Positions 2,335 to 16,759 of a stretch of DNA of 64,000 bases are shown here, one piece after another. The position numbers and the translations under genes were made by a program. Origin of the DNA: Chromohalobacter moromii. GTDB lineage: Bacteria > Pseudomonadota > Gammaproteobacteria > Pseudomonadales > Halomonadaceae. Within the stretch, counting starts at the first letter, position 1. Every line of letters starts with the position of its first letter. The notes under the pieces are model-generated. The model made no database searches. It saw only the letters and a program-made list of their open reading frames with translations, and was not told the DNA's origin. The stretch spans positions 992,001 to 1,056,000 of the forward strand of contig NZ_JAHXDI010000001.1 of assembly GCF_023091865.1 (NCBI RefSeq), read 5' to 3'.

Positions 2335-2367
2335 AAGGGCTCCTTTTGCCCAAGAGTACAGGCGTGA

Positions 2368-3591: not shown

Positions 3592-3675
3592 GGTCATTCT
3601 CCTTGAACGCGGGAAGGGGCCGTGCCTTTCCAGCCTAGCCTATAATACCGGGTGGGCGCTGGATTGTTTGATGTC

Positions 3676-3704
3676 TTGCCGACCGGCGAGCACGCTGTTA
3701 TAGT
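3676..3704 (+). promoter_or_regulatory. Putative sigma-70 promoter for ffs
   Basis: TTGCCG at 3676-3681 and TATAGT at 3699-3704 are separated by 17 bp and face ffs, matching the -35/-10 consensus at 4/6 and 5/6. Transcription would begin near 3711, giving a precursor with a ~95-nt leader that needs 5' processing. Confidence 0.5.
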
Positions 3705-3805
3705 GCTGCGGCGTTCGAGGCAAGTCATTGAAAGCGCATGGCGTTTTCCTCATGTTCGAACGTTTCGGTGGCGACCTGTAAAAGCGCTCGTCAATCGGAT
3801 GCACT

Positions 3806-3921
3806 GTGGTGGCCCTGTCGGTCCTCCCGCAACGCTAAACCGCGAACCCCGCCAGGCCCGGAAGGGAGCAACGGTAGTGGTGGCTGCGTGTGCCGGGATG
3901 TGGCTGATGGGGCCGCCTCCA
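3806..3921 (+). ncRNA. ffs: 4.5S / signal recognition particle RNA
   Basis: The sequence carries the conserved bacterial small SRP RNA core: GGTCCTCCCGCAACGCTAA on the 5' side, the Ffh-binding GGCCCGGAAGGGAGCAACGG apical segment, and GTGTGCCGGGATG on the 3' side. The ends pair: GGTGGCCC at 3808-3815 with GGGCCGCC at 3910-3917 (one G-U). The RNA scaffolds Ffh in co-translational membrane targeting. The last 33 bases are the integration site of the mobile element, and the attL copy leaves the RNA intact. dnaX is the usual next gene and is found only after the element. Confidence 0.95.
3889..3921 (+). repeat. attL, 33-bp core repeat (3' end of ffs)
   Basis: This stretch is identical base for base to 16727-16759. 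The bases immediately outside differ (G/A on the left, A/T on the right), so 33 bp is the full exact match. It overlaps the 3' strand of the 4.5S RNA stem, a typical RNA-gene target for a tyrosine recombinase. Confidence 0.93.
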
Positions 3922-3985
3922 ACCTATTGATTTTAAAGGCTTTTTAGCTCTCTGGCTCTCAATAGTAGCCAAAGGGTGATCCAAA

Positions 3986-5365
3986 ATGCCTTCATACCAG
4001 CGTTCAAACGCTCCGTACCTGTACCGCTCTCGTCACGGGCTGTTCTACTTCCGTATCGTCGTCCCTGAAGCCATCCGGCCTATCATTGGTAAGCGCGAGA
4101 TACGCCGCTCTCTACGCACGACCTCAAAGCGTGAAGCTGTCATCCGCTCCAGTGGGTTGATGGTGAACATTCAGAGCGCGTTCGAAAGGGCATATCAGGG
4201 AGAGAAGCTAGACACGACCAATAGTCCTATTGGTAATATCAGCATTCCAACAGGTAGTAACGATTTCCCCTCCTATCAGCACGCCTCAAACCAGCCGGTA
4301 AGCCTCACACAAGCGACAGCACCACCAGACCCCACCAATCCCCCTCAAGACCTTCCAGCGCCTTCACAGGGGCCGTATCTGTCCGAGATCAACAAGGAGT
4401 ATCGAGAGAGCCAAGAAAGGGAAGGGGTGTCTTTGAAGACACTGGACGATAAGGAATCCGTAGTAAGGCTTCTTATACGTATCGTGGGTGATATGCCGGT
4501 CTCTAGCTTCAGCCTGAACCACGCCAAGACCTTCCGAGAAACAGCCTTGAAGCTCCCGCCACTGGTATTCCGCCTGCTCAAGAAGAATATGAGCCTTGAG
4601 AGCATCATCGAGAACGCCGACAAGACCATCAGCGTGACCACGTACAACAACTACGTGAAGTACCTTGTGACTGTCTTTCAGTTCGCTATCAGGGAGGAAC
4701 ACATAGACCGTAACCCCATGCTGGGTATGAAGATCGTTCAGAGGCGCAAGGCGAACACGTACCGGGCCATCTTCACGAACGATGAGCTTGAAACGATCTT
4801 CAAAACGGTATCGGTGCTTAGGGAGAAGGCCAAGCCGTTCAAGTATTGGCTTCCTTACCTTGGGCTCTACACAGGGGCAAGGCTGAATGAGTTGTGCCAG
4901 TTGTACTTGGAGGACGTGAAGACCATAGACGGCATTCCTTGCATCCATATAAATGAGAGCAAGCCCGACCAGACCTTGAAGACCTTCCAGACGGAACGGG
5001 TGATACCGATTCACTCCAAGCTGATAGAGCTAGGATTCCTTGAGTATGTCGAGAGACAGCGAGCCAATGGACACGAGCGGCTATTTCCTGAGTTGGTCAG
5101 ACATAAGAAGCATGGCTACTCGGCGGCACCTTCCAAGTGGTTTGGGCGCTTAAGAGAACAGCTAGACTTGAAAGATGGGGACCAGAAGCGGGACTTCCAT
5201 AGCTTCAGACACTCCGTAGCGGACCATCTCAAGCAGAAGGGTGTAACAGAGGCGCTGATTGGCGGCATCCTTGGGCACACGACAGGCGGTATCACCATCA
5301 ATCGGTATGGTAAGGACTTCAAGCCAAGCGTGCTGAAGCCTGTCATTGAACAAATCGAGCTATGA
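3986..5365 (+). CDS. int: Tyrosine-type site-specific integrase
   Basis: The product has 459 residues and lies 64 bp inside attL. An N-terminal SLRTTSKREAV segment resembles the arm/SAM-like region of phage integrases. A core-binding domain spans about 120-250. The catalytic domain shows YTGARLNELCQL (catalytic Arg), HSFRHSVADHLKQKG (HxxR box), GGILGHTTGGI (second His) and TINRYGKDF (nucleophilic Tyr near 440). It would catalyse attP x attB recombination at ffs. It is transcribed away from ffs, with two small genes close behind it. The codon use and AT content match the element, not the host. No excisionase is recognisable beside it; the candidates are the short unassigned ORFs. Confidence 0.95.
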   Translation: MPSYQRSNAPYLYRSRHGLFYFRIVVPEAIRPIIGKREIRRSLRTTSKREAVIRSSGLMVNIQSAFERAYQGEKLDTTNSPIGNISIPTGSNDFPSYQHASNQPVSLTQATAPPDPTNPPQDLPAPSQGPYLSEINKEYRESQEREGVSLKTLDDKESVVRLLIRIVGDMPVSSFSLNHAKTFRETALKLPPLVFRLLKKNMSLESIIENADKTISVTTYNNYVKYLVTVFQFAIREEHIDRNPMLGMKIVQRRKANTYRAIFTNDELETIFKTVSVLREKAKPFKYWLPYLGLYTGARLNELCQLYLEDVKTIDGIPCIHINESKPDQTLKTFQTERVIPIHSKLIELGFLEYVERQRANGHERLFPELVRHKKHGYSAAPSKWFGRLREQLDLKDGDQKRDFHSFRHSVADHLKQKGVTEALIGGILGHTTGGITINRYGKDFKPSVLKPVIEQIEL

Positions 5366-5377
5366 GGGGTAAGCACC

Positions 5378-5566
5378 ATGCTGGCGACGACCATGCTTCT
5401 AGCTGCGCTCACAATCCCTGTGGAGCCGGGTAAGAATCCGTATGATGTAGCCTTGGAATACTGTCAGGATAAGGGAGGGCTTGCCATATATGCGCCCCAT
5501 GGCGATGTGGTGGATTTCAGTTGTGGTAATGAGCCTTCCAAGGTAATTACAATAAGCGTAAACTAA
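5378..5566 (+). CDS. Small hypothetical protein with hydrophobic N terminus
   Basis: This 62-residue ORF starts 12 bp after the integrase stop behind GAGGGG at good spacing. It begins MLATTMLLAALTIP, which could be a short signal or membrane segment, and has two cysteines (EYCQDKGG and FSCGNE) that could form a disulfide if exported. I do not recognise it. Tight spacing suggests co-transcription with the integrase and the following gene. Confidence 0.5.
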   Translation: MLATTMLLAALTIPVEPGKNPYDVALEYCQDKGGLAIYAPHGDVVDFSCGNEPSKVITISVN

Positions 5567-5583
5567 TAATTTATGGAGGTATC

Positions 5584-6288
5584 GTGAAGGCCAAGCTACA
5601 TACTAACTGGCGGACCTACACTAAGTTGAGGGAGCAAGGGCAAAGATGCCTTGATTTTAAGACCGACAAAAATAGGTATATTTGCGCTCTCTATGCGAGA
5701 ATAGACAGCCTTGCTGAAGAGACTTTAAAGCTACTAAAAGGGAACTCAGGGACGGGGGCTCCTGTTCTGTTGAGGTCTGCTTATGAAGCTTATGTTGATC
5801 TTGTTTGCATAGCTAAGGACGAAGACCATGTAGAGGACATGAAGTTACGTTTTTACAGCCAAGAAAAGCGGTTCTACAAAAACTACAGTTCTGACAACCA
5901 CTACATGGCGAATGTGACGGAAGAAGAAGCTAGGCGGAAGGTTGAGCATTTTGAGGGACTGCTAAAAAATAAATCACCATTAAACCTCCGAGATAAGTTC
6001 AAGAAAGCTGGAGAGTTGAAAGAATATTATACAGTTTATCATGTGCTTAGTGGTAGTAGTCATGCGTCAATAGAGTCGATAGCAGAATTTTTCAGTGAAA
6101 ATAGAGAGGTGCTCTTCGGCAGGTCGGTGGATGATGGGCTGTATAATTTCTATTGCTTAAGTGCTATTAACCTTGCCTGTGCTGCGCTTATGTATACTCT
6201 TGACTCTCAGAACACAGGGGAACAGTTGGTAAATGAGTTGCGAGAGAACATTCAGCGAGCCATGAAAACCGCAGAGGCGACAGTTTGA
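5584..6288 (+). CDS. Hypothetical protein resembling DUF5677-type proteins, likely cargo
   Basis: The product has 234 residues with a GTG start at 5584, 7 bp after a GGAGG-type site (ATGGAGGTATC). The protein is helical, with LLRSAYEAYVDLVCIAKD near 60-78 and YHVLSGSSHASIESI near 155-170. This Arg-x-x-x-Glu plus Ser-x-x-H pattern is seen in DUF5677/AbiV-like helical proteins, some of which occur in defence islands. It lies directly behind the integrase, a common cargo position in satellites. It is the most AT-rich coding stretch here (many AAA/GAA/TTT codons), suggesting separate acquisition. The family match is from memory of the pattern, and a defence role is inference. Confidence 0.65.
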   Translation: MKAKLHTNWRTYTKLREQGQRCLDFKTDKNRYICALYARIDSLAEETLKLLKGNSGTGAPVLLRSAYEAYVDLVCIAKDEDHVEDMKLRFYSQEKRFYKNYSSDNHYMANVTEEEARRKVEHFEGLLKNKSPLNLRDKFKKAGELKEYYTVYHVLSGSSHASIESIAEFFSENREVLFGRSVDDGLYNFYCLSAINLACAALMYTLDSQNTGEQLVNELRENIQRAMKTAEATV

Positions 6289-7094
6289 ATTCTCTTAGCA
6301 CATATTTTATCGATGCCGATTAGAGTATAATGGGGTTAGCCAAAGCCCGCATGCCCCCTTTAAAATCAATCGTATAATTCTATTGATTGCCAGTATTTCA
6401 TAGTCATTCTATATAGACTTGAATCCTAACTATTTTACCTTGACGAGACTTTCTAACAATTCCATTTTGACGCTATTTTGATTTGTAATCCATCAGTGCA
6501 ATTCGATAGTCAGAACCCATATACATTCAAGACTGTCTTGTTAATAGTTCTGCGGATAAGGCTTAATATCAATAACTTATGGGTTCGTGTAACAGCCATT
6601 ATGTTAAATGCGTGATTTCTAAATGGGTAAATGGCTGGTCCTGATTGCTGGAAGATAAGGGAGTAACTTGAAAGGCGAGAGGTCAGGGTATTGACGGTAG
6701 TGGATGATTGTGAAGGAGATTGGAAGGGTAGAGGGATTAGATAAAGTTATTGATGAGGAGTATTTGGTAAGTAATAGTTATAGCTCCTAGGCAAACAAAT
6801 AAAAGAAGACAAAGAAGTAAGACAAGCTAAACTTACTAACACAATCACCAATCACTCTAAGCCTCAAGGGTACAAGTATTTAATAAGTATCTGACACTAT
6901 CTTTAGCAATAAGCAAACACCAGAAATCAAAGTATGCTGAGCATTGACCACTTCAAGGCTTATTTTGACGGCTGATTGTAAGAAAATTGAAGCTCAAGAT
7001 TACCATTCGTGCCTTGAAGTGTATTTGAGTGGTGCTAGAACTCCCTGTGAGTCCACATGCTATTGGAGCTTCAGTTCCTAAACGTAACATGCTA
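6289..7094. other. Long AT-rich non-coding stretch inside the element
   Basis: About 800 bp without a supportable gene, lying between the rightward cargo genes and the leftward head operon. Stop codons are dense in all frames. I see no convincing promoter or RNA. A 14-bp copy of the sequence just inside attL (3926-3939) recurs inverted at 6357-6370. The stretch may be the remains of lost cargo or a convergent-transcription buffer. Confidence 0.6.
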
Positions 7095-7135
7095 GACAAA
7101 AAGAAAGCCCAAACACCAAGGTAGTGAGTGGGCTT
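7095..7135 (-). terminator. Intrinsic terminator of the head operon
   Basis: On the minus strand, AAGCCCA (7135-7129) pairs with TGGGCTT (7111-7105) and is followed by TTCTTTTTG. It lies 9 bp after the stop of the last leftward gene. Confidence 0.75.
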
Positions 7136-7143
7136 AAAGGGTC

Positions 7144-7533
7144 TTACAACGTTGGTGCTGTAATATCAGGGGCGCTACCAAGACCAGAAAACTGAAACTT
7201 GAAATGCTTTGGTCCTGAGGCTGGTGTGGTGTAATCCATCCATCCTTCGGCCTGATACCATTCTCCATTGGCGTACATTATCAAGCTTCCATCCTGTTGG
7301 TCTTTAGGAACATCAGGGAAGTTTGGATACTCTCTCAGATATAAAACCTTGTAGTCCTGTGTGTAGTATTGACCTGCTTGTGTGAAGGTCAGGTTGTTTC
7401 CACCACTGAAGGGCTGAAGGTTGCCACGAGTAATGTAAGGCTCGCTATAGCCTTCTACATAGTCGCCAATCTCATTGTAATAACTGGCAGACATATAGAG
7501 AGCAACAGGTGTCCTGTAGAATGATCGTCTCAT
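7144..7533 (-). CDS. Putative head-closure (stopper-type) protein
   Basis: The product has 129 residues with ATG at 7533 behind AAGGA. Its layout is that of small head-completion proteins of siphoviruses: a GDYVEGY strand, then a GNLQPFSGG turn, a YKVLYLREYP strand, DGSLIMYANGEWYQAEGW, and a C-terminal strand ending HFKFQF. Known counterparts bind the portal/adaptor ring and form the docking surface for a tail. It is the last gene of the leftward head module, 40 bp after terL. The assignment is by fold-pattern memory, not a strong motif, so the family is tentative. If right, it lets self-made heads accept tails from another phage. Confidence 0.5.
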   Translation of the reverse strand: MRRSFYRTPVALYMSASYYNEIGDYVEGYSEPYITRGNLQPFSGGNNLTFTQAGQYYTQDYKVLYLREYPNFPDVPKDQQDGSLIMYANGEWYQAEGWMDYTTPASGPKHFKFQFSGLGSAPDITAPTL

Positions 7534-7573
7534 GTTGAATCCTTATAGTTTCGTCTAGGAGCTAAAGTTTCAC

Positions 7574-9064
7574 TTATAATAGAGTTGAGCCACCAAGGGA
7601 TTGAAGGCGCTTGTTGTCCTTACTTACCCTGATAGGGCTGATTAAATTTCCCTTGGTAAGCTGGTTGTAACAATCGGAAAGGGTATCGATAACGTCATCG
7701 TGCGCACCGTTGTTCTTGTTACCATCGAAGGCTTCAAGCTCTCGATAGTTGTCTGAACTGAATACGCCTTTGACAATGAACACAGAACCTTCCTGAGCGG
7801 CAATCATGAAGTCCTGGGCTCGGTTCAGCTTGGATGCTCTGGTCTTACAAATAACGGCTCTGTTGCCTTGTGCTAGGAGGCGAGCTTTCTTGCTCTGTGC
7901 TACTTGTTTCCCTGAAGCCCCCGCATCCTGTGGGATACCTTGGTAAACGTCTCTACCATCCCTTCGAGCGGTATCGAGCATTAGCTTTTCAACGTGTGCG
8001 GCACGATCCCTCATGCTTTCCATATCGAGAATGTAAAAGCAACCTGATTCCTTGTCATAGCTACACTTGATACCACGAGTCCAGTCAGGGTCAGGGTAAC
8101 TCTCACTTGGAAGTGTGCCCGCAATATCCCAACAGCGCATTGTAGGAGCATCCAAAGGAACATCGGACAATGACACTTCCTTGAAATGATCGCGCCTTAG
8201 AAAGCCTTCTGAGCCTTGTGTGGCGAACCAATTACCTAGAAGTAGTCTTTCACGCTCAAGGCGTTTCATGTTCTCAAGCTTGAACACATAGTCAGGCTGG
8301 TGTTTGACCATATAAGGGTTGTCATAAATGTTCGCAGCGTAGAACACGAAGGAAAGGGCGTGTTTCTGTGCCTCAGTACCGTAAAGGGCTTTGATTTCTT
8401 CCTTAGTACTGTAAAACTCAAAGTTCCCGTTGATTTGGAGCATGTAGGTTGTCACACCATCCATATCAGGATCGGGTAAACCACTTTCCAATAGATACCC
8501 GCCTTTCTGAAGCCATTCACAAAGGAAGCTGTCACGGTCAGGGTTACACGTCATTCTTAGTTGGTGCTTCCTATCACTCTGAGAGCGTAGGCGAGAGGTG
8601 AGATACCACACGTCAGACTCGTCACACTGAGCGGCTTCATCAACCAACCATTCAGTAACCTGTGTCCCTTGCATATCGTCAGTGTTGTTATTCAGATAGT
8701 GGGCTTTCACAAAGGAACCTGAAGGAAAGCGCCAATTCATTTCAATAGAGTTGCTGGTAACACCATGGGGCTTGAACAGTTTGTTTCCTGTCTCCCATAG
8801 ACTGCCAGCGCCTTTAACCATTCGCTGTGACTTCCTCAAGATGCCCGCTACATAATCGGAATCGTACAAGGCAGCCTGAAGAATCCTCATTAATGAGAGC
8901 TGGGATTTGCCACTTCCGGCAGCGCCACCGAAAACGATAATGTCATTAGTTTCATCGTTCAGATAGAGTTCATGTTTCTTTGAAAGGGGTGCGATAACCG
9001 GGATTTCTGATAGGGATTCTTGATTATGGTAAAAGGTATAGTTTCTTGTGTTCTTTCTTGGCAT
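7574..9064 (-). CDS. terL: Phage terminase large subunit
   Basis: The product has 496 residues; the start is fixed by a near-perfect AAGGAGGAATA site before ATG 9064. The ATPase domain has Walker A GGAAGSGKS (46-54) and Walker B EWLVDEAAQ (Asp142/Glu143). The C-terminal RNase H-like nuclease has MRCWDIAGT (Asp313), FYILDMESM (Asp347) and GAHDDVIDT (Asp456/457). The enzyme translocates DNA into the procapsid through the portal and cuts the genome. Unusually it follows the major capsid gene, separated from it by a terminator, instead of heading the module beside a small subunit. No terS is recognisable, so DNA recognition may come from the helper or from one of the unassigned small genes. Confidence 0.95.
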   Translation of the reverse strand: MPRKNTRNYTFYHNQESLSEIPVIAPLSKKHELYLNDETNDIIVFGGAAGSGKSQLSLMRILQAALYDSDYVAGILRKSQRMVKGAGSLWETGNKLFKPHGVTSNSIEMNWRFPSGSFVKAHYLNNNTDDMQGTQVTEWLVDEAAQCDESDVWYLTSRLRSQSDRKHQLRMTCNPDRDSFLCEWLQKGGYLLESGLPDPDMDGVTTYMLQINGNFEFYSTKEEIKALYGTEAQKHALSFVFYAANIYDNPYMVKHQPDYVFKLENMKRLERERLLLGNWFATQGSEGFLRRDHFKEVSLSDVPLDAPTMRCWDIAGTLPSESYPDPDWTRGIKCSYDKESGCFYILDMESMRDRAAHVEKLMLDTARRDGRDVYQGIPQDAGASGKQVAQSKKARLLAQGNRAVICKTRASKLNRAQDFMIAAQEGSVFIVKGVFSSDNYRELEAFDGNKNNGAHDDVIDTLSDCYNQLTKGNLISPIRVSKDNKRLQSLGGSTLL

Positions 9065-9376
9065 TATTCCTCCTTGTATGTGTTCTTATGCGGCTTTCTA
9101 AGGGCTTTGAATAACTAATTGGTATGGATGCCTTGATATGGATATTCAAAAGCCTGAGAGAGCAACACAAACGGATATTAAAGGCATTAAAAAAGGGAGA
9201 AGGGCTTTAACCCAACTCCCCCTAGGCTGTAAGCCTTGACGGCTCACTATGTTTCGAGCAATAGTAAGTCCTATACAGACTTGGAATCCGTTTCCTTATC
9301 TGTACTTGATTGGTTCAACAAAGATTCAGGTAGGAGCTATACGCTCCGATGGGAAAACTTACTAAAGCTCTAACAA
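9065..9376. other. Intergenic region between capsid and terminase genes
   Basis: This 312-bp stretch holds the terminator at 9188-9220, a short GGAGC/GCTCC hairpin at 9333-9347, and the terL ribosome site. I could not identify a confident terL promoter among the AT-rich sequence at 9065-9187. Confidence 0.6.
9188..9220 (-). terminator. Intrinsic terminator between major capsid and terminase genes
   Basis: On the minus strand GGGAG (9220-9216) pairs with CTCCC (9199-9195), with an inner GGG/CCC pair, followed by TTTTTTA. It lies about 155 bp after the capsid stop and 125 bp before the terL start. It could reduce terminase expression relative to capsid or end the capsid transcript. Confidence 0.8.
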
Positions 9377-10387
9377 TTAAGCGGCTGTACCAATGGAGAG
9401 TTCCACTGTTGCGCCAAACTGTTCAGCAACGATCAGGCTGTTCTGTTCGCTGGAAACTTCAACATAACGATCGCGCGGATCGCGGAAGCTACGGGCGAAA
9501 CGACGAGCGCCACCATTACCAAGACCGCCAAGGGTGCTTTCAGGACCGAAGAAGGCGCGTCCCAGCTTGGTACGGGGAACCAGTACACCGGCTTCAGGTG
9601 TCAGTACATCGACGGTAGAACCATCGGCTTTCTGGAAGCTGTCATCATACTGGACCACTGACACGTTACCCATTTGGAACATGCTGTAGCCATTGGCGAC
9701 AGTACCAAGTTCAAGACGAAGCGGGTTATTACCGCTATTGTCGAACTGATAAGCCTGTTGAACATCGCTAGAGCCGACAATGTGGTCGAACATATCGACA
9801 CCAGCAAACAGGATATAACCACCGATACGGCCACCGTTGGTAAGGCCAGCCTTGGAAACTCGCTGTGCTGCGCGTAGGTCAGCGGTCAGGGAACCATCGT
9901 TAAGCGCCTGAGTAGGACGAGAGACGCCAAATTCAGTAGCCATATCGATAGTACCGTAGTGGTCTGTATCAACCTGTCCGGTCAGAGTCATAAGCGCCTG
10001 AAGATATTCTAGGTGAAGCTCATGATGTTCCACTTGGACTTCGAGTTCTTCAGCGACAGCCTGAGCAACGGTTTGTTCGCTCTGCTGGTCGAAGCCACGA
10101 ATACCAGCCAGACGCTCGCGGCCAATGGTGCGAGTAACGGGGTAGTGGGGTAGTGCCATCGTATGCACATCATACGGACGTTCACCAGTTACGTTCTTCT
10201 CGGCGACATTCCGAAGATGGTCTGAGAGGACGTGGAGGTTATTATCACGAACGTCAAAGCTAATCGCGTCACTACCTACCATCTGTTCACGATAGAGCCC
10301 GAGAGAGCCGAATAGGCCCGGCTGCGGTTTGATCTTGTTGATCGCCTCAGTCTGTGACTGGACTTCAGTGTTATTCAGAATACTCAT
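9377..10387 (-). CDS. Major capsid protein, lambda gpE-like (HK97 fold)
   Basis: The product has 336 residues, the usual size of the lambda gpE group, with ATG at 10387 behind GGGAGA. Supporting features: an N-terminal RTIGRERLAGIRGFDQQSEQTVAQAVAEEL segment, where gpE-type proteins place the conserved R..R....E....A.. helix, followed by a long helix with HHELHLEYLQALMTLTG. The gene directly follows a decoration-protein gene, as D and E do in lambda. Its role is to form the icosahedral shell. There is no separate N-terminal delta domain or neighbouring protease, consistent with gpE-type capsids that assemble on a scaffold without cleavage. Family assignment is by length, context and helix pattern. 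Confidence 0.8.
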   Translation of the reverse strand: MSILNNTEVQSQTEAINKIKPQPGLFGSLGLYREQMVGSDAISFDVRDNNLHVLSDHLRNVAEKNVTGERPYDVHTMALPHYPVTRTIGRERLAGIRGFDQQSEQTVAQAVAEELEVQVEHHELHLEYLQALMTLTGQVDTDHYGTIDMATEFGVSRPTQALNDGSLTADLRAAQRVSKAGLTNGGRIGGYILFAGVDMFDHIVGSSDVQQAYQFDNSGNNPLRLELGTVANGYSMFQMGNVSVVQYDDSFQKADGSTVDVLTPEAGVLVPRTKLGRAFFGPESTLGGLGNGGARRFARSFRDPRDRYVEVSSEQNSLIVAEQFGATVELSIGTAA

Positions 10388-10410
10388 TAATTATTCTCCC
10401 TGTGTCTGTT

Positions 10411-10749
10411 TTATTTGTTGATTACAACGATGCCTTTGGCTTCAAGCTTGCTGTTCACGTCAGCCACGGTAGCGTTGCCATAAATAAGTGCCTTGCCATT
10501 AACAGTGCTTGGATTGCCACGAGTCATTACACGGCAATGCTTGGTGCCTGCCGGCTTGTCTTCGGCAAGAATCCCTAGCACATTGGTAGTTGAACCATTT
10601 ACGGCACTACCAGCGGTAGCCATAACGGTTCCTGATTCGAGAGCGCCACTAGCAGTAATCTCGACTTCATCAAACGGGACTTCATAGTCTCCGTTAAGCT
10701 GGGCAAGCCAGCCTTCATTCTGTGTTACATTGGTTTCAATCTTAGCCAT
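10411..10749 (-). CDS. Head decoration protein, lambda gpD-like
   Basis: The product has 112 residues with ATG 10749 behind GGAG. The sequence has the gpD-like beta-rich pattern: a flexible N terminus, then a GTVMATAG..VNGSTTNVLGILAEDKPAGTK core, a basic CRVMTRGN strand and GKALIYGNATV. In lambda-like heads such trimers clamp the expanded shell at three-fold sites and allow packaging of full-length DNA. It lies 23 bp upstream of the major capsid gene and only 3 bp after the preceding ORF. Confidence 0.75.
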   Translation of the reverse strand: MAKIETNVTQNEGWLAQLNGDYEVPFDEVEITASGALESGTVMATAGSAVNGSTTNVLGILAEDKPAGTKHCRVMTRGNPSTVNGKALIYGNATVADVNSKLEAKGIVVINK

Positions 10750-10752
10750 TGA

Positions 10753-11136
10753 TCATTCTCCATACTTTTGTTCAAGGATTTGGTAGACGTAATCTGTTTC
10801 GTCTGTTTCTTCTTCCTGCTCTGGTAGGTCTTCAACGTTATCGGGGTCTGAGTCCTGTTCGAATGATTCAGGGTTGTCCAACACGTTATTCAATTCCGTT
10901 TCTTTGGCTTCGATAAGCTCATAGAAGGTTTCAGCGTGTTCCGATTCGTTGAGTGCCATGAAGGCGGGAAGAAGTTCTTCGACAAGTCTGTCTTCGTACA
11001 GGAAGGATTTAATACGTTGCCTTGTCTCTTCTTCGATTTGAGCAAGGTCTTTTTCATCTTCGGTATCTTGCTCTTCCTGCTCTGGTTGTTTCCGTTTAGG
11101 CTTTCGGTATTCCTGTAGTCGCTTCAGGATGCTCAT
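10753..11136 (-). CDS. Highly acidic coiled protein, candidate internal scaffold
   Basis: The product has 127 residues. The first 17 are basic (KRLQEYRKPKRK), the rest is strongly acidic and predicted helical, with long E/D/Q runs. It sits between the adaptor and decoration genes, the place where small head modules keep a scaffold. No scaffold or protease is otherwise present. Its translation start region (17 bp, 11132-11148) is identical to that of the major capsid gene (10383-10399), suggesting matched translation. Function is inferred from charge, size and position only; I do not recognise a family. Confidence 0.6.
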   Translation of the reverse strand: MSILKRLQEYRKPKRKQPEQEEQDTEDEKDLAQIEEETRQRIKSFLYEDRLVEELLPAFMALNESEHAETFYELIEAKETELNNVLDNPESFEQDSDPDNVEDLPEQEEETDETDYVYQILEQKYGE

Positions 11137-11139
11137 TAA

Positions 11140-11499
11140 TTATTCTCCAAAGATGGCTTCAAAGTCGCTCCAATCCTTTCTGTCTGTGTTTAGGAGGATC
11201 GGAACAGGTGTCTTTTTGACCCGGTTACGCTTGAGGATGAGAGCGTCGAGACGCTTTTCTAGGGTGTCTATATTGGCTCTGTTCTCACTTGCGTCACCGA
11301 TACGCCACCTTTCAGGGGTTAACGACAACTGGTTAATGATCGTCTCAAGGGCTGCTATTGCAGCCTCATACACGTCCCCTTCGTTGTCCTGAAGGAACCA
11401 GTCATAGATATTATCTGGAAGATACTGGTCGAGTTCTTCAGTAGCCGTATCACCAGTTAGGAGGCGTGTTCTTCCAATGTCTGTGTTTGGATCAATCAT
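11140..11499 (-). CDS. Putative head-tail connector / adaptor protein
   Basis: The product has 119 residues with ATG 11499 behind GGAGG, overlapping the portal stop by 4 bases (ATGA), so translation is likely coupled to portal. The pattern RTRLLTGDT..EELDQYLPDNIYDWFL...VYEAAIAALETIINQL..ERWRIGDAS..RANIDTLEKRLDAL follows gp6/gp15-type connector proteins: an R-x-x-x-G-D start, a D-x-x-I helix, an AA-rich helix and a late amphipathic helix. Those proteins form a 12-mer ring under the portal. Identification is by pattern and by adjacency to the portal gene. Confidence 0.6.
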   Translation of the reverse strand: MIDPNTDIGRTRLLTGDTATEELDQYLPDNIYDWFLQDNEGDVYEAAIAALETIINQLSLTPERWRIGDASENRANIDTLEKRLDALILKRNRVKKTPVPILLNTDRKDWSDFEAIFGE

Positions 11500-12767
11500 C
11501 GAATATCCTCCAATCGTGGCTGGTCATTGGCTGAAGTAGGAGCGCCGCCTTTCTCCCTGAAGAAGTCTTCAAGCTTCTCACCGGGGTTTACACCGCCAGC
11601 CGTTAGCAGACGTTGCCAACCTGAAGTGAACGTATCCCAATCAACATCTTCGATTTCTTCAAACTCAATATCAGGTATGTTACGGCTGGTGATTCCGTTC
11701 AATTCGAAAGCGGTTCGAATAGCTTTCTTGAACACACCAGCGATTGAATCTTGAATAGACTTGGCGAATAGCGTTAGCAAGTAGGTCTTTGACTCTGAAA
11801 GGGCGAAACTCCCCGATCCGCCGCCTTCCTGTCCGAGACTCAATAGCATTGATTGGAGAGAGAGCATAATTTCACGGTTACAACGTTCAATGGAGTCATT
11901 TACGCGATAGTCGTTACTAGTATCACCACCAATGGTGTCTACCTGGAACTGCTGCTGGCCGCCTTCGTACACGTCTGAGGGCACGACAACATAGCTTGAT
12001 TTCCCGGCGTGCATCATCTCGGCTTGTTGCAATAGCGAATCAACGTAAACAGCTTCATCGCTGGCTGGCTCTGTCAGGTACTTGGTAATGTACTCTGACG
12101 GGAGAGAAACACTCAGGACGCCAGACAGGTTCTTAGCGGTTCCGATTAGGCTGTACTCCCGGTACACATTCTTCTCTTTCCAAGCCGTGTAGCAGCCTTT
12201 CAATAGACTCTGACCAAGTGGGGAATCCTGAGAAGGCTGAACGCTGAATAGAAGCAGCTTGGAGCCGTCAATCTCTTTCTGTTGTTCCTCGACACGCTCG
12301 ATAAGGCCATCATTCTCGGCTGGATCGAGAATAACCTTTTCAAGCTCACCACGATTGAACTGAAAGCGGTTCACTGTGCTCAGGTGAATAGGGCTGAATC
12401 CTTTGAAGACTTGATAACCGTCTACACGCTCAAAGACCATTTCCTGAAGGCTTGAACCGTATTCGAGACAGCTAAGCACATGGTACATGAAACGCTTTAT
12501 GTCATATGGAGAAAGGTTATCGAGCGAAGTATTGAGAGCGTCGATTACTGCCTTCTCTCGTGTAGTGCTTTTGGGGTGATACTTAATTTTGAATTTCTTG
12601 GCTAGGACTGACTTGATAAAAAGCATTGAACCTGAAATAACAGGGTCGAATCCCATGTCGTGGAACGTGCGGAAAGCATTATCGATGCTCAAGTCTTTCT
12701 TTGTCTCACGGAGAATCGTGTTTTCTACGTGAATTGGGGTTGTCTCTTGTGTGGTGAATTTCACCAT
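11496..12767 (-). CDS. Phage portal protein
   Basis: The product has 423 residues with ATG 12767 (cattgg-type alternatives absent), after GGGAG. It resembles the gp29/DUF935-like portal group: an N-terminal wing with SIDNAFRTFHDMGFDPVISGSMLFIKSVLAKKFKIKY, then YDIKRFMYHVLSCLEYGSSLQEMVFER, a typical portal segment, and a crown-side QSMLLSLGQEGGGSGSFALSESKTYLLTLF motif near 305-335. The dodecameric portal is the DNA entry channel and terminase dock. It is the largest gene of the head module and nearly its first. Portal proteins of this type usually start a head operon after terL; here terL is last. Confidence 0.85.
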   Translation of the reverse strand: MVKFTTQETTPIHVENTILRETKKDLSIDNAFRTFHDMGFDPVISGSMLFIKSVLAKKFKIKYHPKSTTREKAVIDALNTSLDNLSPYDIKRFMYHVLSCLEYGSSLQEMVFERVDGYQVFKGFSPIHLSTVNRFQFNRGELEKVILDPAENDGLIERVEEQQKEIDGSKLLLFSVQPSQDSPLGQSLLKGCYTAWKEKNVYREYSLIGTAKNLSGVLSVSLPSEYITKYLTEPASDEAVYVDSLLQQAEMMHAGKSSYVVVPSDVYEGGQQQFQVDTIGGDTSNDYRVNDSIERCNREIMLSLQSMLLSLGQEGGGSGSFALSESKTYLLTLFAKSIQDSIAGVFKKAIRTAFELNGITSRNIPDIEFEEIEDVDWDTFTSGWQRLLTAGGVNPGEKLEDFFREKGGAPTSANDQPRLEDIR

Positions 12768-12771
12768 GATG

Positions 12772-13020
12772 TTAGGCTCCCTGTTTTGTTAGATCGTTGT
12801 CGAGCTTCCCTCGCCATCGTTTGAAATCCATGTGCCACCCGCCGCCATGGTGCTTGTACTTTTGAGAATGCTGGTACAGGTAATAAAGATCGTCGGGGTG
12901 ATGGTCGAGCATGTAACGTAGGTATTCACGAAGCTCAGGGCTTGGTGTCTCTGTCAGCATTCTGTTGCTGAAAACGTGTGCTGGTATATCGTCTAATTTC
13001 TGGTAGGGCTTTTTAGCCAT
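12772..13020 (-). CDS. Small hypothetical protein at head of capsid operon
   Basis: The product has 82 residues. ATG at 13020 is chosen because GGGAG lies 8-9 bases upstream; a longer GTG reading from 13050 has no ribosome site. The protein is rich in Tyr, His and Lys (RYMLDHHPDDLYYLYQHSQKYKHHGGG). It ends 4 bp before the portal gene. Its place as first gene of the operon is where a small terminase subunit is often found, but I see no helix-turn-helix, so no function is assigned. Confidence 0.6.
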   Translation of the reverse strand: MAKKPYQKLDDIPAHVFSNRMLTETPSPELREYLRYMLDHHPDDLYYLYQHSQKYKHHGGGWHMDFKRWRGKLDNDLTKQGA

Positions 13021-13065
13021 TTTCAAGACTCCCTTGCTGGTAAACCCCACAACAAGGGGTGAGGA

Positions 13066-13095
13066 ATAATAAAAAGAAGGCGGGGGCTACCCGCC
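13066..13095 (-). terminator. Intrinsic terminator ahead of the capsid operon
   Basis: On the minus strand GGCGGG pairs with CCCGCC (stem 13079-13084 with 13090-13095) and is followed by TTCTTTTTATTATT. It lies 45-75 bp upstream of the first head gene and downstream of the hairpin array, so transcripts entering from the Rep-like gene would stop here unless antiterminated. Confidence 0.75.
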
Positions 13096-13163
13096 CTGTA
13101 TCTAAGGACGCTAGAAGGAGAGCGACTTTTCGGAGGGATGAAAAGAAGTGATAAATATAAATT

Positions 13164-13480
13164 AGCATTGAAGGAAAATGCTGTAGAACCGCAACTTTCC
13201 ACTAAGTATCATCGTAAGGCACGATGAACCACGAAATAGGTAGAGCGACTTACAAGGAGGTGCCGACAATGAAATGCCCCCATAACATTGCCAGTTTAGT
13301 TGTAAGCCGCTCTAGGGAAGTCATGCAAGGTTAAGACAAGCATGACTAGAGGCCAGCGAAAACACGGCTCACAACACCGTGTACAAACTGAAGACAATAT
13401 TCGCTGGGCTTGGGTAGGGAGACTAAAGCAACTCCCTAGGAGGGGCTGGCAGCCAATATTGACACGAAAAACCGCCAGCT
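13164..13480 (-). ncRNA. Candidate structured RNA: run of consecutive hairpins upstream of the head operon
   Basis: Successive inverted repeats fill this non-coding stretch: 13164-13169/13177-13182; 13210-13215/13221-13226; 13241-13255/13300-13314 (15-base arms with one mismatch, inner CAATG/CATTG at 13267-13271/13286-13290); 13319-13326/13340-13347 (8 bp); 13353-13360/13400-13407 with nested 13362-13367/13377-13382; 13415-13421/13432-13438 (7 bp); 13445-13450/13474-13479. They do not overlap and leave short linkers, as in a folded RNA. Stems work on either strand; the minus strand is assumed because the head operon and its leading terminator (13066-13095) follow. The possible roles are an antitermination or leader RNA, a packaging signal, or a small RNA. 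No known family is recognised. Confidence 0.55.
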
Positions 13481-13503
13481 AACATCTGAACGGAGGCAAC
13501 CAT

Positions 13504-13974
13504 TCAGGTGAAATCAAGTAACTCTTGATATTGCGTAGTGCAATAGAAATCTTTCTTTGAAGTCTCGGACAGGCCACGGATGAGATACCATTTGTGGATG
13601 GCTTGTTCTCTCGTGAGTCTGTCACTCTGTTTCCAGCCGTATGCTGGATTTACCACGATCCTAATATAACCACGAGGAACTTCATCGTTACCCCATGATG
13701 TTTCATACTCTATCAAGTGATCTATGTTCCGTAGGGTGCGATTAATATTGTTGATTTTGCAGCCGAATAGTTCACACAATCCCTTGCGAGTCATTAGAAT
13801 GACGTTCTCATAATCAATTTGATCGACTAGTAAGGAGATCTTCTTATATTCTCCCTTGGTGAACTTTGCGGTGTTACGTTTGTTCATGAAGCTATAGAAC
13901 TTTGAAGCACTGTGAATCTTCAAGCAATCGTTAATAATCTGAGGGGAGTTATCCCCGGTAGACTGACTTTTCAT
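13504..13974 (-). CDS. Small winged-helix Rep-like protein (RepL-like), putative replication initiator
   Basis: The product has 156 residues. ATG 13974 is chosen over an upstream in-frame ATG because GGGGAGG lies 5 bases before it. The core KGEYKKISLLVDQID..NVILMTRKGLCELFGCKINNINRTLRNIDHLIEY looks like a winged helix-turn-helix: a helix, then the LCELFGCKINNINRTLR recognition unit, then a wing, followed by RGYIRIVVNPAYGWK. This order (helix, HTH, R/K-G-x-hydrophobic-x-hydrophobic-NP) is seen in RepL-type plasmid initiators and phage Rep proteins. It is expressed leftward from a consensus promoter at 14104-14132, towards the hairpin array and head genes. It could alternatively be a late-gene regulator. 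Confidence 0.55.
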   Translation of the reverse strand: MKSQSTGDNSPQIINDCLKIHSASKFYSFMNKRNTAKFTKGEYKKISLLVDQIDYENVILMTRKGLCELFGCKINNINRTLRNIDHLIEYETSWGNDEVPRGYIRIVVNPAYGWKQSDRLTREQAIHKWYLIRGLSETSKKDFYCTTQYQELLDFT

Positions 13975-14103
13975 TGGGCCTCCCCTGTGTTGGTGTGAAA
14001 TAAACGAGCAAAAGCGGCCATCCCAAATCAATGAGATGGCTGGAAATAAGCTAGAAGGAGATATAGAGGAAGGTGTTTTTTGCTTTCCTCCATCTTATAA
14101 GTA

Positions 14104-14132
14104 TGGTAACAGAACTTTGCCTAAATGTCAAT
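14104..14132 (-). promoter_or_regulatory. Leftward sigma-70 promoter for the Rep-like gene
   Basis: On the minus strand TTGACA (14132-14127) is a perfect -35, followed after 17 bp by TACCAT (14109-14104). It lies about 130 bp before the start at 13974. Confidence 0.6.
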
Positions 14133-14158
14133 ACAAATGAGGATGTTTATCATTTGTA
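14132..14158. promoter_or_regulatory. Perfect 9-bp inverted repeat, operator candidate
   Basis: TACAAATGA at 14132-14140 and its complement TCATTTGTA at 14150-14158 are separated by 9 bp. The repeat abuts the -35 box of the leftward promoter, a position suited to an activator or repressor. Confidence 0.6.
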
Positions 14159-14302
14159 AATATATAACAATACGGTCACTGCGGGGCCTGTGAGTGGTTG
14201 TGAGTAGAGTTAAAACGATGCAGTCGGGAAGTTTGTAAAATTCATCTACGGCGCTTGTGTAGGCCGTGTGGAGTTAATAGGGGAGGGTGTTCTCAACGAG
14301 TT

Positions 14303-14318
14303 GCAGGGCTTCGACAGG
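14303..14318. repeat. Partial copy of the 38-bp repeat
   Basis: GCAGGGCTTCGACAGG is identical to the right half of the repeat at 14452-14467. Confidence 0.7.
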
Positions 14319-14430
14319 TATGGCATACGGCTGGCAGTGCTTGAAGGTGTTTGAAACATTATTGAAGGGAAGGCACGGGTAAGAGTGCATCGTACATCGT
14401 GCCACTCGAAAGGGAGCTAGAAACTAGAAA

Positions 14431-14468
14431 CTTGTCGAGATTGCCGCAACGGCAGGGCTTCGACAGGG
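14431..14468. repeat. 38-bp nested inverted repeat, copy 1
   Basis: Outer arms TTGTCGA and TCGACAG enclose an inner hairpin TGCCG-CAA-CGGCA. The copy at 14677-14714 keeps the same length, the outer arms and the inner TGCC/GGCA, while the linkers vary, so both hairpins are conserved rather than the sequence alone. Confidence 0.7.
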
Positions 14469-14478
14469 TGTAACCTCA

Positions 14479-14515
14479 ATTGTCGATTGACAATCACTCT
14501 CATCTGTGCTACATT
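14479..14515 (+). promoter_or_regulatory. Rightward sigma-70 promoter overlapped by a palindromic operator
   Basis: TTGACA at 14487-14492 and TACATT at 14510-14515 are 17 bp apart. A 6-bp palindrome, ATTGTC (14479-14484) with GACAAT (14489-14494), covers the -35 box, so a bound repressor would block it. Transcription runs toward the gene at 14957. Confidence 0.65.
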
Positions 14516-14676
14516 GAAGATGTAAAGTTGAGATTTAACCACAAACCGGATTGACCACTACGGTCATTGCCGGCTTCTCTTGTGTCTGCTCGACTTGCAT
14601 CAGGCTTAGCTTATTAAACACTGTCACTTCAGCTTTTGACTGGTGGGTATAAGTTGTGCCTGAAATCTCACTGAGT

Positions 14677-14714
14677 CTTGTCGAATACTGCCGCAAGGCA
14701 AATGCTCGACAGGG
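14677..14714. repeat. 38-bp nested inverted repeat, copy 2
   Basis: Same architecture as 14431-14468: CTTGTCGA and CTCGACAGGG arms around TGCCGCAAGGCA. The two copies are 246 bp apart, flanking the rightward promoter. Confidence 0.7.
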
Positions 14715-14956
14715 ATATTTAATACGTATCGCGTGAGCACAACGGTACGGAGTGAAACGACTGTGTTCTTCATGTGCCATCTACCGATACATATTCAATA
14801 ACACTGAAGATTTTCTTGAAGGGTATTTGAGTCGTGAGGGGTCTTACCTCACTCATTTCTTTTCTTCGATAAATCTTCAATACCATGGCAAATTTGCAAC
14901 ACGGTTATTCCAACTGTGGGAGACGCTATGCCTAAAATATAAGAAGGAGCTAATTA

Positions 14957-15721
14957 ATGACAGAACATACCGATGTGTATCATCCTGAAGATATGCCAGC
15001 ACTCAAGGCAAGGCTTACAAGGACCAAATCAAGGAACTGTATTGTAGCCTTCGAGACTCTTGAAATCGAACTTGATAATTCACTGGGAATTGATTTAAAT
15101 AAATGCGACCGTAATTCAAAACGTGGCCCAAAGCCTTCTAGTATCACGAATGAGGTTCTGGATTTCATGTGGTGTTGCATGGAAGTTTCCGACATTCCTG
15201 ATGAAGCCTTGAACGTATTGGAGGGTGTGGCAAGGCTCAATTGGTATTCAAGGAAGCATCGCTCAGACAAGATCGTTGCTCCGAATCCAGTTGTCGAATG
15301 CCCTGTTGTAATGACTTGGAGAGTCTTATTTGATAAATGCGACCGTAATTCAAAACAGGAGTTGAACGCGGCTTTCACGGTCAGGAAACATGATGATGAC
15401 GGGGAGTGGCTTCTTTCACCCGCTGGTGTGACAAGGAACGAATATCTTCGTGGTCTGTGGCAGTCGAAAAATAACGCTGACAGCCTGAGTGTCCTTTCCA
15501 TGCTCTATTGCTTGCGTGAGCTTAAAGAAATCACAACCAAAGGAGTTCAGCAGGTTATCAATGTCGGTGAGAGGCAGGCCAGACGCTACAAGCAGGCTCT
15601 TGGCTTGTGTATGCCTTATTTGGTCGAAGCCTACCAGAGCATAGCGCCAGAATTTGATGCTGGACTGGTGAGAGAGGTTGAGCGTATCGAAGAACAAGTA
15701 ATATTTTCAGAAGCCGCATAA
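14957..15721 (+). CDS. Hypothetical protein with C-terminal helix-turn-helix, putative regulator or replication protein
   Basis: The product has 254 residues with ATG 14957 behind AGAAGGAG. I do not recognise a family. The C terminus LKEITTKGVQQVINVGERQARRYKQAL (about 200-226) reads as a helix-turn-helix. Two copies of the heptapeptide KCDRNSK (about 50-56 and 128-134) come from an exact 24-bp DNA repeat at 15099-15122 and 15333-15356. Synonymous positions are also identical, hinting that the DNA sequence itself matters, as with iterons inside lambda O. The gene is the rightward counterpart of the Rep-like gene across the control region. Confidence 0.65.
   Translation: MTEHTDVYHPEDMPALKARLTRTKSRNCIVAFETLEIELDNSLGIDLNKCDRNSKRGPKPSSITNEVLDFMWCCMEVSDIPDEALNVLEGVARLNWYSRKHRSDKIVAPNPVVECPVVMTWRVLFDKCDRNSKQELNAAFTVRKHDDDGEWLLSPAGVTRNEYLRGLWQSKNNADSLSVLSMLYCLRELKEITTKGVQQVINVGERQARRYKQALGLCMPYLVEAYQSIAPEFDAGLVREVERIEEQVIFSEAA
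15099..15356. repeat. Exact 24-bp direct repeat within the 254-aa gene
   Basis: The copies lie at 15099-15122 and 15333-15356, in the same frame, 234 bp apart, with every base identical. Core: AAATGCGACCGTAATTCAAA. Confidence 0.85.
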
Positions 15722-15902
15722 GCAATAATTCCAAGTCAGATAGAGCGGGAATGACTTGGAAGACCAAAACTCTAGCTACACATAGGGCGAGAGCGCCCGC
15801 ACAAGCCACACAAGGGCTTTCAATGGGGCAAGCAGGGCCTTCCTACCAGTAACCCCTTACAATGGCTCATGTGAACTTTGAGTGACTCAGGAAATTAAAT
15901 AG

Positions 15903-16238
15903 CTATTGTAATGTCCTACGTATGTTGTTCATGGGGCGTTCACACATACCTTGCCACATGCTGTCTAAATAATAGTTTTGGCTTTCTTCTTCCCACCATG
16001 TGTTTGCATCGTCTAGTAATTTTCCAGATTTTTCTGTTTCGATATTAGCTGCGTTTACCGTTTTCGATAATAGTATTAAGGAGTCGGGGGCCTTGCCCGT
16101 TTTATGTCCAATGATGGCGCATGTGTATAGAACGGATATGGAGGTTCCTTGTTTGAATTCTTCAGTTATGTAAGAGGCAGAATGACTGACGGCAGGAAGC
16201 AGCGAGAGTAGGACGATGGCTAAGGTTTGCAATTTCAT
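15903..16238 (-). CDS. Small secreted hypothetical protein, likely cargo
   Basis: The product has 111 residues from the ATG at 16238. A longer reading from 16301 would put a charged stretch ahead of the signal. The first 21 residues (MKLQTLAIVLLSLLPAVSHS then A) form a typical Sec signal peptide with an A-x-A-like cleavage site, so a mature periplasmic or secreted protein of about 90 residues is expected. It has two cysteines (LYTCAIIG, WQGMCERP), and a WWEEESQNYYLDSMW patch. I do not recognise it. It is at the attR end, transcribed leftward on its own: probably a lysogenic-conversion type gene. Confidence 0.6.
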   Translation of the reverse strand: MKLQTLAIVLLSLLPAVSHSASYITEEFKQGTSISVLYTCAIIGHKTGKAPDSLILLSKTVNAANIETEKSGKLLDDANTWWEEESQNYYLDSMWQGMCERPMNNIRRTLQ

Positions 16239-16335
16239 AGCGTACCTATCGGAATGTTTTTGATTTGGCCTAGGTGTAAACCATGGCTTATCAGGCATCA
16301 AGCCCCAACTAAAAGCTCTTATACAGCCCGTGAAG

Positions 16336-16354
16336 GCAAATGAGAATCATTAGA
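16336..16354. promoter_or_regulatory. Fur-box-like sequence
   Basis: The 19-mer at 16336-16354 matches the E. coli Fur consensus at 14 of 19 positions, with AATGA-GAATCATTA in the centre. It lies 20-40 bp before the 55-aa gene. A second 14/19 match is at 16539-16557. Confidence 0.3.
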
Positions 16355-16375
16355 TATTAAAGGAGGATCGACCAC

Positions 16376-16543
16376 ATGAGTTTTCCAACCACAACTGACT
16401 TTGAAAAGCATGGCGATATAGCCGTGAACACCAACAGGAAACCGACCAAGCGTTTCAAGCGTGACAGGGAAGAACGGAGGGATCGATTAGGAGGGCTAGG
16501 GCTGTATTTGGGTTGCTCCAAAGACCGTAAAAAAGAGCGATAA
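16376..16543 (+). CDS. Small basic hypothetical protein (55 aa)
   Basis: This short ORF has a strong AAAGGAGG ribosome site 9 bases before ATG. The product begins MSFPTTTDFEKHGDIAVNTN and ends in a very basic half (KPTKRFKRDREERRDR and CSKDRKKER). It lies about 180 bp inside attR. Size, charge and position near an attachment site would suit a DNA-bending or excisionase-like factor, but there is no recognisable motif. An overlapping leftward ORF at 16357-16641 has no ribosome site and is less likely. Confidence 0.5.
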   Translation: MSFPTTTDFEKHGDIAVNTNRKPTKRFKRDREERRDRLGGLGLYLGCSKDRKKER

Positions 16544-16726
16544 TGAGAACCATTCATGACGCTTGAGGTGGTCCAAAATGGTGGTCCATTCAGGGTGCCC
16601 CTCATGCCTAATTCTATGGTAAGCTGTAGATAGGTCTTCACGGACAGATAGCTAGAAAAGTCTTTTTTATCAAGTTGTTAAGGTGTCGCCATTAATCGGA
16701 AGCCAATCGGTATTTTTGGCTAATAA

Positions 16727-16759
16727 TGTGCCGGGATGTGGCTGATGGGGCCGCCTCCA
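16727..16759 (+). repeat. attR, 33-bp core repeat
   Basis: Exact copy of the last 33 bases of ffs (3889-3921). It is followed by host sequence leading to dnaX, which marks the right end of the element. Confidence 0.93.

Follow-up and report, generated by a model that had tools for sequence, protein, structure and literature searches.

An Integrated, Capsid-Encoding Element at the ffs Gene of Chromohalobacter moromii Probably Represents a Separate Lineage of Phage Satellites

Introduction

Capsid-forming phage-inducible chromosomal islands (cf-PICIs), as described in the parts of the published accounts used here, carry a capsid gene of family PF05065, a head protease, HNH and small-terminase (TerS) genes, AlpA, and Pri-Rep (PMC13230959, PMC10690885, PMC10448857); they are integrative, with an integrase and attachment (att) sites, and encode their own capsid, portal, terminase, and connectors and no tail genes. 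Here we analyze an island of the same general content that lies at the ffs gene of Chromohalobacter moromii, in a stretch of 64,000 nucleotides (NCBI RefSeq assembly GCF_023091865.1, contig NZ_JAHXDI010000001.1, positions 992,001 to 1,056,000 of the forward strand) that we refer to as the window. A sequence-only reading had named cf-PICIs as the closest known lifestyle; this likeness stands by gene content, but the cf-PICI hallmarks that we tested failed. The major capsid protein (MCP) belongs to PF03864 (E = 6.6e-36), with PF05065 not listed up to an E value of 1; no head maturation protease, AlpA, or Pri-Rep match was found among the open reading frames (ORFs) of the element that were searched, and the candidate replication (Rep) protein is a small winged-helix protein. 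We conclude that the island probably belongs to an intact, integrative, capsid-encoding lineage of phage satellites that needs the tail and lysis functions of a helper; going by gene content, the lineage would work like a cf-PICI, and it appears distinct by the features tested.

PF03864 capsids are not new to satellites, since 356 such genes have been counted in published PICIs (PMC13230959). PISP TG93 of Vibrio crassostreae is, like our element, small (11.1 kb) and tail-less and has a capsid-protein-E (PF03864) gene, but the part of the source describing it presents it as episomal, with a protease, a small terminase, a MerR-like regulator, and ParA and with no integrase (PMC13230959). The Escherichia coli RepA_N satellites, as partially described, share capsid and decoration genes, tyrosine or serine recombinases, Rep, and a link to virulent phages with the present family and share a lone tape measure gene with several of its members, so that the combination of capsid, decoration protein, and lone tape measure is not new in itself; by that description they lack a terminase and an adapter and carry a baseplate component (PMC10448857), whereas the family examined here has terL and portal genes and the window has no tape measure. 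The Streptomyces satellites MulchRoom and MiniFlayer have their own head and packaging genes and no primase in the account available, and MulchRoom (integrase, no fiber or tail genes) and MiniFlayer (fiber, no integrase) parallel two arms of our family; they differ, again by description, in their actinobacterial hosts and in having a named small terminase and scaffold (PMC10690885). A literature search that left aside SatelliteFinder, VEIME, and the primary cf-PICI papers, where an earlier listing is possible, returned no description of the lineage.

Results

Insertion site and boundaries. The island measures 12,838 bp from repeat to repeat and is bounded by a perfect 33-bp direct repeat; none of 100 shuffled sequences gave two matches to it. 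The left copy covers the terminal part of the signal recognition particle (SRP) RNA gene ffs (positions 3816-3912, 74.3 bits), which was the only feature found at gathering scores in an Rfam search of the window. In the genus, the site is empty in 8 of 10 genomes, which have a single att copy at which the left and right flanks of the window meet, and it is occupied, with two att copies, in the remaining two, the window genome and Chromohalobacter canadensis 85B (G237; handles beginning with G denote genomes and those beginning with L denote loci). The sequence and the empty sites show that the 33-bp repeat restores the end of the RNA gene after insertion. The base composition changes with the boundaries, the GC fraction in 1-kb bins being 0.59-0.69 outside the island versus 0.38-0.53 in bins wholly inside it. 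The 12.8-kb element and its placement in ffs, both taken from the letters of the window in the sequence-only reading, are accordingly borne out. The main features are as follows.

3889..3921, + strand: attL, 33-bp repeat overlapping the 3' end of ffs
3986..5365, + strand: tyrosine integrase (DUF6538 and Phage_integrase), 459 aa (Pfam E = 1.4e-15 and 3.8e-15)
7144..7533, - strand: probable head-closure/neck protein, 129 aa (phrog_939, "head protein," E = 0.0053, weak; conserved after terL)
7574..9064, - strand: terminase large subunit (TerL), 496 aa (phrog_979, E = 1.1e-129)
9377..10387, - strand: MCP, lambda-E type, 336 aa (PF03864, E = 6.6e-36)
10411..10749, - strand: probable head decoration protein, 112 aa (phrog_49, E = 1.6e-4, weak; HDPD, 0.014, below the cutoff)
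10753..11136, - strand: o127, acidic, conserved, candidate scaffold by position (no named family)
11140..11499, - strand: putative head-tail adaptor, 119 aa (phrog_1732, function unassigned, E = 1.5e-11)
11496..12767, - strand: portal, Mu type, 423 aa (PF06074, E = 8.7e-19; phrog_113, 1.3e-48)
12772..13050, - strand: o92, signature protein of the family (alignments; helical model)
13051..13510, - strand: structured leader of the head operon (folding z-score)
13504..14031, - strand: winged-helix DNA-binding protein, candidate replication initiator, start may be 13974 (model and fold search)
16727..16759, + strand: attR, 33-bp repeat

Gene content. Seventeen ORFs of the element were searched against PHROGs, 16 against Pfam, and 10 against NCBIfam, with o55 left out. 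A rightward integrase gene is followed by two cargo ORFs, and the leftward head operon runs o92-portal-adaptor-o127-decoration-MCP-terL-closure behind its leader; no listed ORF of the element has an internal stop. The integrase, portal, MCP, and terminase, all named beforehand, gave strong profile matches; for the remainder of the head set proposed at that time, the decoration and closure proteins have weak matches only, and the adaptor owes its name to its position because phrog_1732 has no assigned function. Likewise, terL is indeed late, after the portal and MCP genes, but it is not last, a small closure-like gene lying downstream of it. The searches of these ORFs in the three collections turned up no gene for a tail protein, a lysis protein, a protease, AlpA, or a primase, in agreement with the earlier description of the element as lacking tail, lysis, protease, and primase genes; the sole tail-named match, that of o132 to a tail-collar family (E = 0.21), is treated as chance. 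With seven tape measure proteins of the family as tblastn queries, no remnant of such a gene was found in the window (best E value over the element, 0.63), and a tape measure hidden between 6290 and 7144 was therefore considered and rejected. The predicted helical model of o92 found no fold match in the PDB.

A conserved head-cassette family. Relatives of the cassette occur in Kushneria phyllosphaerae, in the Halomonadaceae genomes G813, G818, G846, G710, and G756, and in viral contigs of 4.2-15.6 kb; a scan of genome contigs gave at least two loci. The protein o92 is present in 7 of 275 genomes of the family Halomonadaceae, representing 5 of 24 genera, a count from which C. canadensis is absent because of a break in its assembly; it gave no match at an E value of ≤1 in 50,697 phage records. 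Each of the 24 loci that have five or more of the eight core genes keeps the order o92-portal-adaptor-o127-decoration-MCP-terL(-closure) on one strand, and two of these loci (L140 and L036) are one and the same sequence along 14.9 kb; the other three of the 27 loci examined are two pieces from C. canadensis and L062. The window element itself has all eight core genes in this order on one strand. In a TerL tree, 19 TerLs of the lineage split from 26 others with branch support of 100/99, although the 26 were handpicked from 65 less similar loci and are of lower identity by construction, three of them are on contigs of <15 kb (one identical to a 74-kb contig), and the tree carries a long-branch warning for sequences including G756, L033, G710, L067, L064, and Kushneria. 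Four contigs have a portal match together with a TerL of lower similarity, and in each of them terL immediately precedes the portal gene, unlike in the o92 family. The check on gene order that had been proposed and the proposal of a separate lineage both held; its confinement to halophilic gammaproteobacteria did not. The lineage includes viral contigs with fiber-type genes.

Islands bounded by repeats were found in the window (12.8 kb), G813 (about 14.4 kb), and G756 (about 15.1 kb), and no bounding repeats were found for the islands of Kushneria, G846, and G710. Homologues of the window integrase are present in C. canadensis, G813/L036, G756, and L059, and an integrase-like ORF of another type, judged by eye, is present in L058; no homologue of the family integrases was found in the fiber-type viral contigs. 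In Kushneria, a serine recombinase-like gene lies near a TnsA-like gene (L026:9341-12082 and L027:1084-1605), and the element ends beside a comM-like fragment (by eye).

What lies behind the head genes varies. A tape measure protein is encoded in 8 of the 27 loci (7 distinct), a fiber-type match, which could reflect low complexity in L064, L065, and L067, is found in 9, and the two never occur together (0/27). The tape measure proteins match PF20155 (Kushneria, 1.9e-16; G813, as L036, 1.6e-14) and of the eight Halomonadaceae genomes that harbor the element, five have one, so that the absence of a tail gene, noted beforehand, is true of the window element and not of the whole family. Genes for SLT and spanin-like proteins are found as well in four contigs (L030, L031, L061, and L062). 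No convincing tape measure match was obtained in the window, in the head-side piece from C. canadensis, in G846 (best E = 0.015), or in eight fiber-type or aquatic contigs, and in the first three of these nothing further stands behind the head genes; the window element also has none of the fiber, SLT, spanin, or holin-like genes seen in its relatives. L030 has a 127-bp terminal repeat, which may be an assembly overlap, and L064 begins and ends inside the portal gene, a few bases of which are not accounted for, consistent with a genome that is circular or permuted.

Comparison with C. canadensis. DNA identity to C. canadensis is 90.8% over window positions 319-5556 (host flank, integrase, and o62) and 94.3% over 6319-10405 (closure, terL, and MCP). 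The C. canadensis element keeps the integrase, terL, MCP, and closure genes and swaps cargo: its DUF5677 protein is 34% identical to that of the window, and in place of o254 it encodes an endonuclease VII-like protein and a second winged-helix protein, which matches MarR_2 and Rep3_N weakly. Five core genes of this copy were not seen, because its assembly breaks inside the element. Ratios of nonsynonymous to synonymous substitution (dN/dS) were 0.05 for terL, 0.16 for the MCP gene, and 0.12 for the integrase gene, and no ratio exists for the closure gene, which has zero synonymous differences. These three genes are therefore under purifying selection, which argues that the element is not a decaying prophage.

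Nearest phages. Among the listed matches, identity to the nearest phage proteins was 23-24% for the MCP, 25-29% for the portal, 37-38% for TerL, and 25-28% for the tape measure of one relative. The phages concerned are virulent myophages of the PaP1/KPP10 type, also named the Felix-O1 type, with genomes mostly of about 83-154 kb and one of 42 kb; the head genes are distantly related to theirs. A plasmid collection gave five distant MCP matches (21-23%). These phages differ from the element in genome size, and o92 is absent from the phage collection. Boevelstad and vB_PseuGesM_254 are matched by both TerL and the tape measure of the relative, and such shared matches fit descent from one phage group but do not identify a helper. 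The host genome has one capsid gene of the PF05065 type (G000:C2:247002-247883, L001), perhaps part of a resident prophage.

Leader RNA. The 460-nucleotide (nt) leader of the window head operon is strongly structured (z = -6.63; 0 of 100 shuffles were as stable), more so on the operon strand (-7.3) than on the antisense strand (-4.6), and contains a terminator-like hairpin at 13097-13077; that the element has a distinctive leader, as first noted from the letters alone, is upheld. In 200-nt windows, eight of nine leaders of the integrating type, two of which (G818 and L059) are 98% identical, reached z ≤ -5.4, the minimum for G813 being -3.0, and the leaders of L030, L061, L063, and L064 reached only -2.4 to -4.4. 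The anti-Shine-Dalgarno-like motif YCUCC occurs 6 times in the window leader versus 1.99 times in shuffled sequences (2 of 200 shuffles were as high); it is clearly enriched also in G756 and L058 and less or not at all elsewhere (Kushneria, 1 versus 1.10), and not all copies are unpaired. Five leaders (G813, G818, G846, G756, and L058) have in common an RNA with a three-way junction, found upstream of the head operon at the following loci.

L140:8957-9098, + strand: three-way-junction RNA
L058:5038-5187, + strand: three-way-junction RNA
L144:11335-11472, - strand: three-way-junction RNA
L142:2770-2911, + strand: three-way-junction RNA
L141:8924-9076, - strand: three-way-junction RNA

Its outer stem of 16 bp includes 9 pairs with changes on both sides, and one arm contains a conserved CUCC. 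Overall, 90.4% of cells pair versus 79.5% in shuffles (0 of 500 were as high) and 31-57% in slid versions, a score favored by the derivation of the structure from the same five sequences. Among 22 sources, the model built from this RNA (R1) matched only those loci or near-copies, plus one weak reverse-strand match; it occurs in 4 of 275 Halomonadaceae genomes, all four with an o92 element, and gave no match in the leaders of the window, Kushneria, or G710. Rfam gave two chance-level matches near the window leader and nothing at gathering scores in the Kushneria stretch. We hypothesize that the leaders control the head operon.

Candidate Rep protein. The gene upstream of the leader encodes a protein whose predicted model is a winged helix (mean pLDDT, 78). 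A fold search gave no PDB match at an E value of ≤0.001; the matches were mostly MarR regulators, and a Rep-DNA complex appeared only at rank 42. The protein groups with nine ORFs of other family members, and four matches in the phage records are at chance level (E of 0.07 or more). Its earlier designation as Rep-like is thus borne out in part; the fold points to DNA binding, and the protein is a candidate replication initiator. In several relatives, the rep gene is preceded by one for a protein of 480 to 490 aa with an N terminus that resembles a P loop by eye, a candidate helicase (L144:12962-14425, L142:590-2056, L058:2465-3940, and L141:9927-11372); the copies in L144 and L141 match phrog_2467, of unknown function, and a homologue was not seen in the window element. 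Between rep and o254 (14300-14900) there are repeated GGGCTTCGACAGG-type elements, a possible origin or regulator, and the + strand of 14500-14899 shows strong predicted folding (z = -5.2).

Other genes. The remaining ORFs of the island are listed below.

5378..5566, + strand: o62, small ORF, 95% identical in C. canadensis (no family match)
5584..6288, + strand: DUF5677 protein, variable cargo (Pfam E = 6.4e-20)
14957..15721, + strand: o254 (phrog_3360, function unknown; PHROG match)
15903..16301, - strand: o132, small exported-looking protein, signal peptide by eye (28% relative in the Kushneria element)
16376..16543, + strand: o55, small basic ORF near attR (ORF listing)

A perfect 24-bp direct repeat within o254 (15099-15122 and 15333-15356) encodes KCDRNSK twice. 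Ten accessory proteins from the window element and its relatives, the DUF5677 protein among them, gave no match in PADLOC.

Discussion

The element has its own head genes and no recognizable tail genes and therefore probably spreads by borrowing the tail of another phage. Its integrase places it at the end of ffs, and we suggest that induction, probably by a helper phage, would lead to excision, to replication from the candidate initiator of the element, and to transcription through the structured leader once its terminator is relieved. A small head would then be built and element DNA packaged with the portal and terminase that the element encodes, and the tail and lysis functions of another phage would be used to leave and enter cells. 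Both the dependence on a helper and what that helper would be are inferred, the former from the absence of tail and lysis genes.

Several observations weigh against this interpretation. TerL is present, but no small terminase or HNH match was found among the searched ORFs of the element, although o92 may be an unrecognized TerS. Some of the neck genes are named by position. In the host genome there were no matches to PF20155, PF06074 occurs in the element only, and no homologous helper was seen. Large-scale searches outside the Halomonadaceae found little: the window was the sole match among 369 genomes in a class-wide search with the portal profile at a strict E value of ≤1e-60, and an order-wide search for o92 found it in 2 of 390 genomes, both of the Halomonadaceae type. 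Finally, some relatives have fiber and lysis genes, so that the cassette can exist together with lysis functions of its own and membership in the lineage need not entail a helper.

Those relatives raise the prospect of a self-sufficient temperate mini-virus whose virions are tail-less or short necked and whose adsorption and exit are performed by unrecognized small genes with no helper. Contigs L030, L031, and L061 (11.5-12.9 kb), with fiber-type, SLT endolysin, and spanin-like genes and no tape measure detected, speak for such a virus, and the terminal repeat of L030 and the split portal gene of L064 point the same way. The window element lacks every one of these fiber, lysis, and holin-like genes, however, and MiniFlayer, in the part of its description used here, has a fiber and a podovirus-like appearance yet needs a helper (PMC10690885); we consider this account of the window element unlikely. 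Still less probable is a defective prophage stripped of its tail and lysis genes. Such an origin would accommodate the distant relationship of the head genes to those of full-size myophages and the roughly 850 bp without a sizeable ORF at the point where several relatives have a tape measure gene. The att pair is intact, the ORFs are open, and dN/dS is low, though, and compact islands of the same order recur in other genera; TerL is split from the others, and the arrangement in the four less similar contigs, terL upstream of the portal gene, is unlike that seen here. We rejected this possibility on dN/dS, the empty sites, and the conserved gene order, and the relatives that would mark the module as a remnant of a full-length prophage were looked for and not seen, the viral contigs measuring 4.2-15.6 kb and the bounded islands 12.8 to about 15.1 kb, with low dN/dS.

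A divergent member of the cf-PICI family seems very improbable to us. The lifestyle suggested by an integrase, an own capsid, portal, and terminase, and no tail is the same, and published PICIs include the 356 PF03864 capsid genes mentioned above (PMC13230959). Membership was nevertheless rejected on the capsid family, PF03864 and not PF05065, and on hallmark genes without a match among the searched ORFs (protease, AlpA, and Pri-Rep, with no HNH or TerS match either), and terL stands late in the cassette. The reading that we favor thus remains that of an intact satellite lineage which encodes its own capsid and would take its tail and lysis functions from a helper.

A broader and more tentative proposal, which we rate as possible and somewhat doubtful, is that the family as a whole is a head-only mini-virus lineage with an HK97-fold capsid and strongly structured leaders, in which solutions to the problem of travel without a tail are interchangeable behind a single conserved head cassette. 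The window type would use the whole tail of a helper, most Halomonadaceae members would use their own tape measure on the tube of a helper, and others, with a genome of 12 to 13 kb, would use fibers without a tail tube, some with their own lysis genes; the leaders of some members would contain a new covarying RNA.

Few lineages of capsid-encoding satellites are known, and the o92 lineage stands apart from them by its capsid family, the order of its genes, its replication gene, and its leader. The same head cassette is backed by a tape measure, by a fiber with or without lysis genes, or by nothing, and this opens two general questions to experiment: can a satellite dictate how long a hijacked tail becomes, and do satellites and free mini-viruses turn into one another? 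The markers described here, o92, the gene order, and the RNA model, can be used to find elements without the capsid, protease, and replication genes by which cf-PICIs are described.

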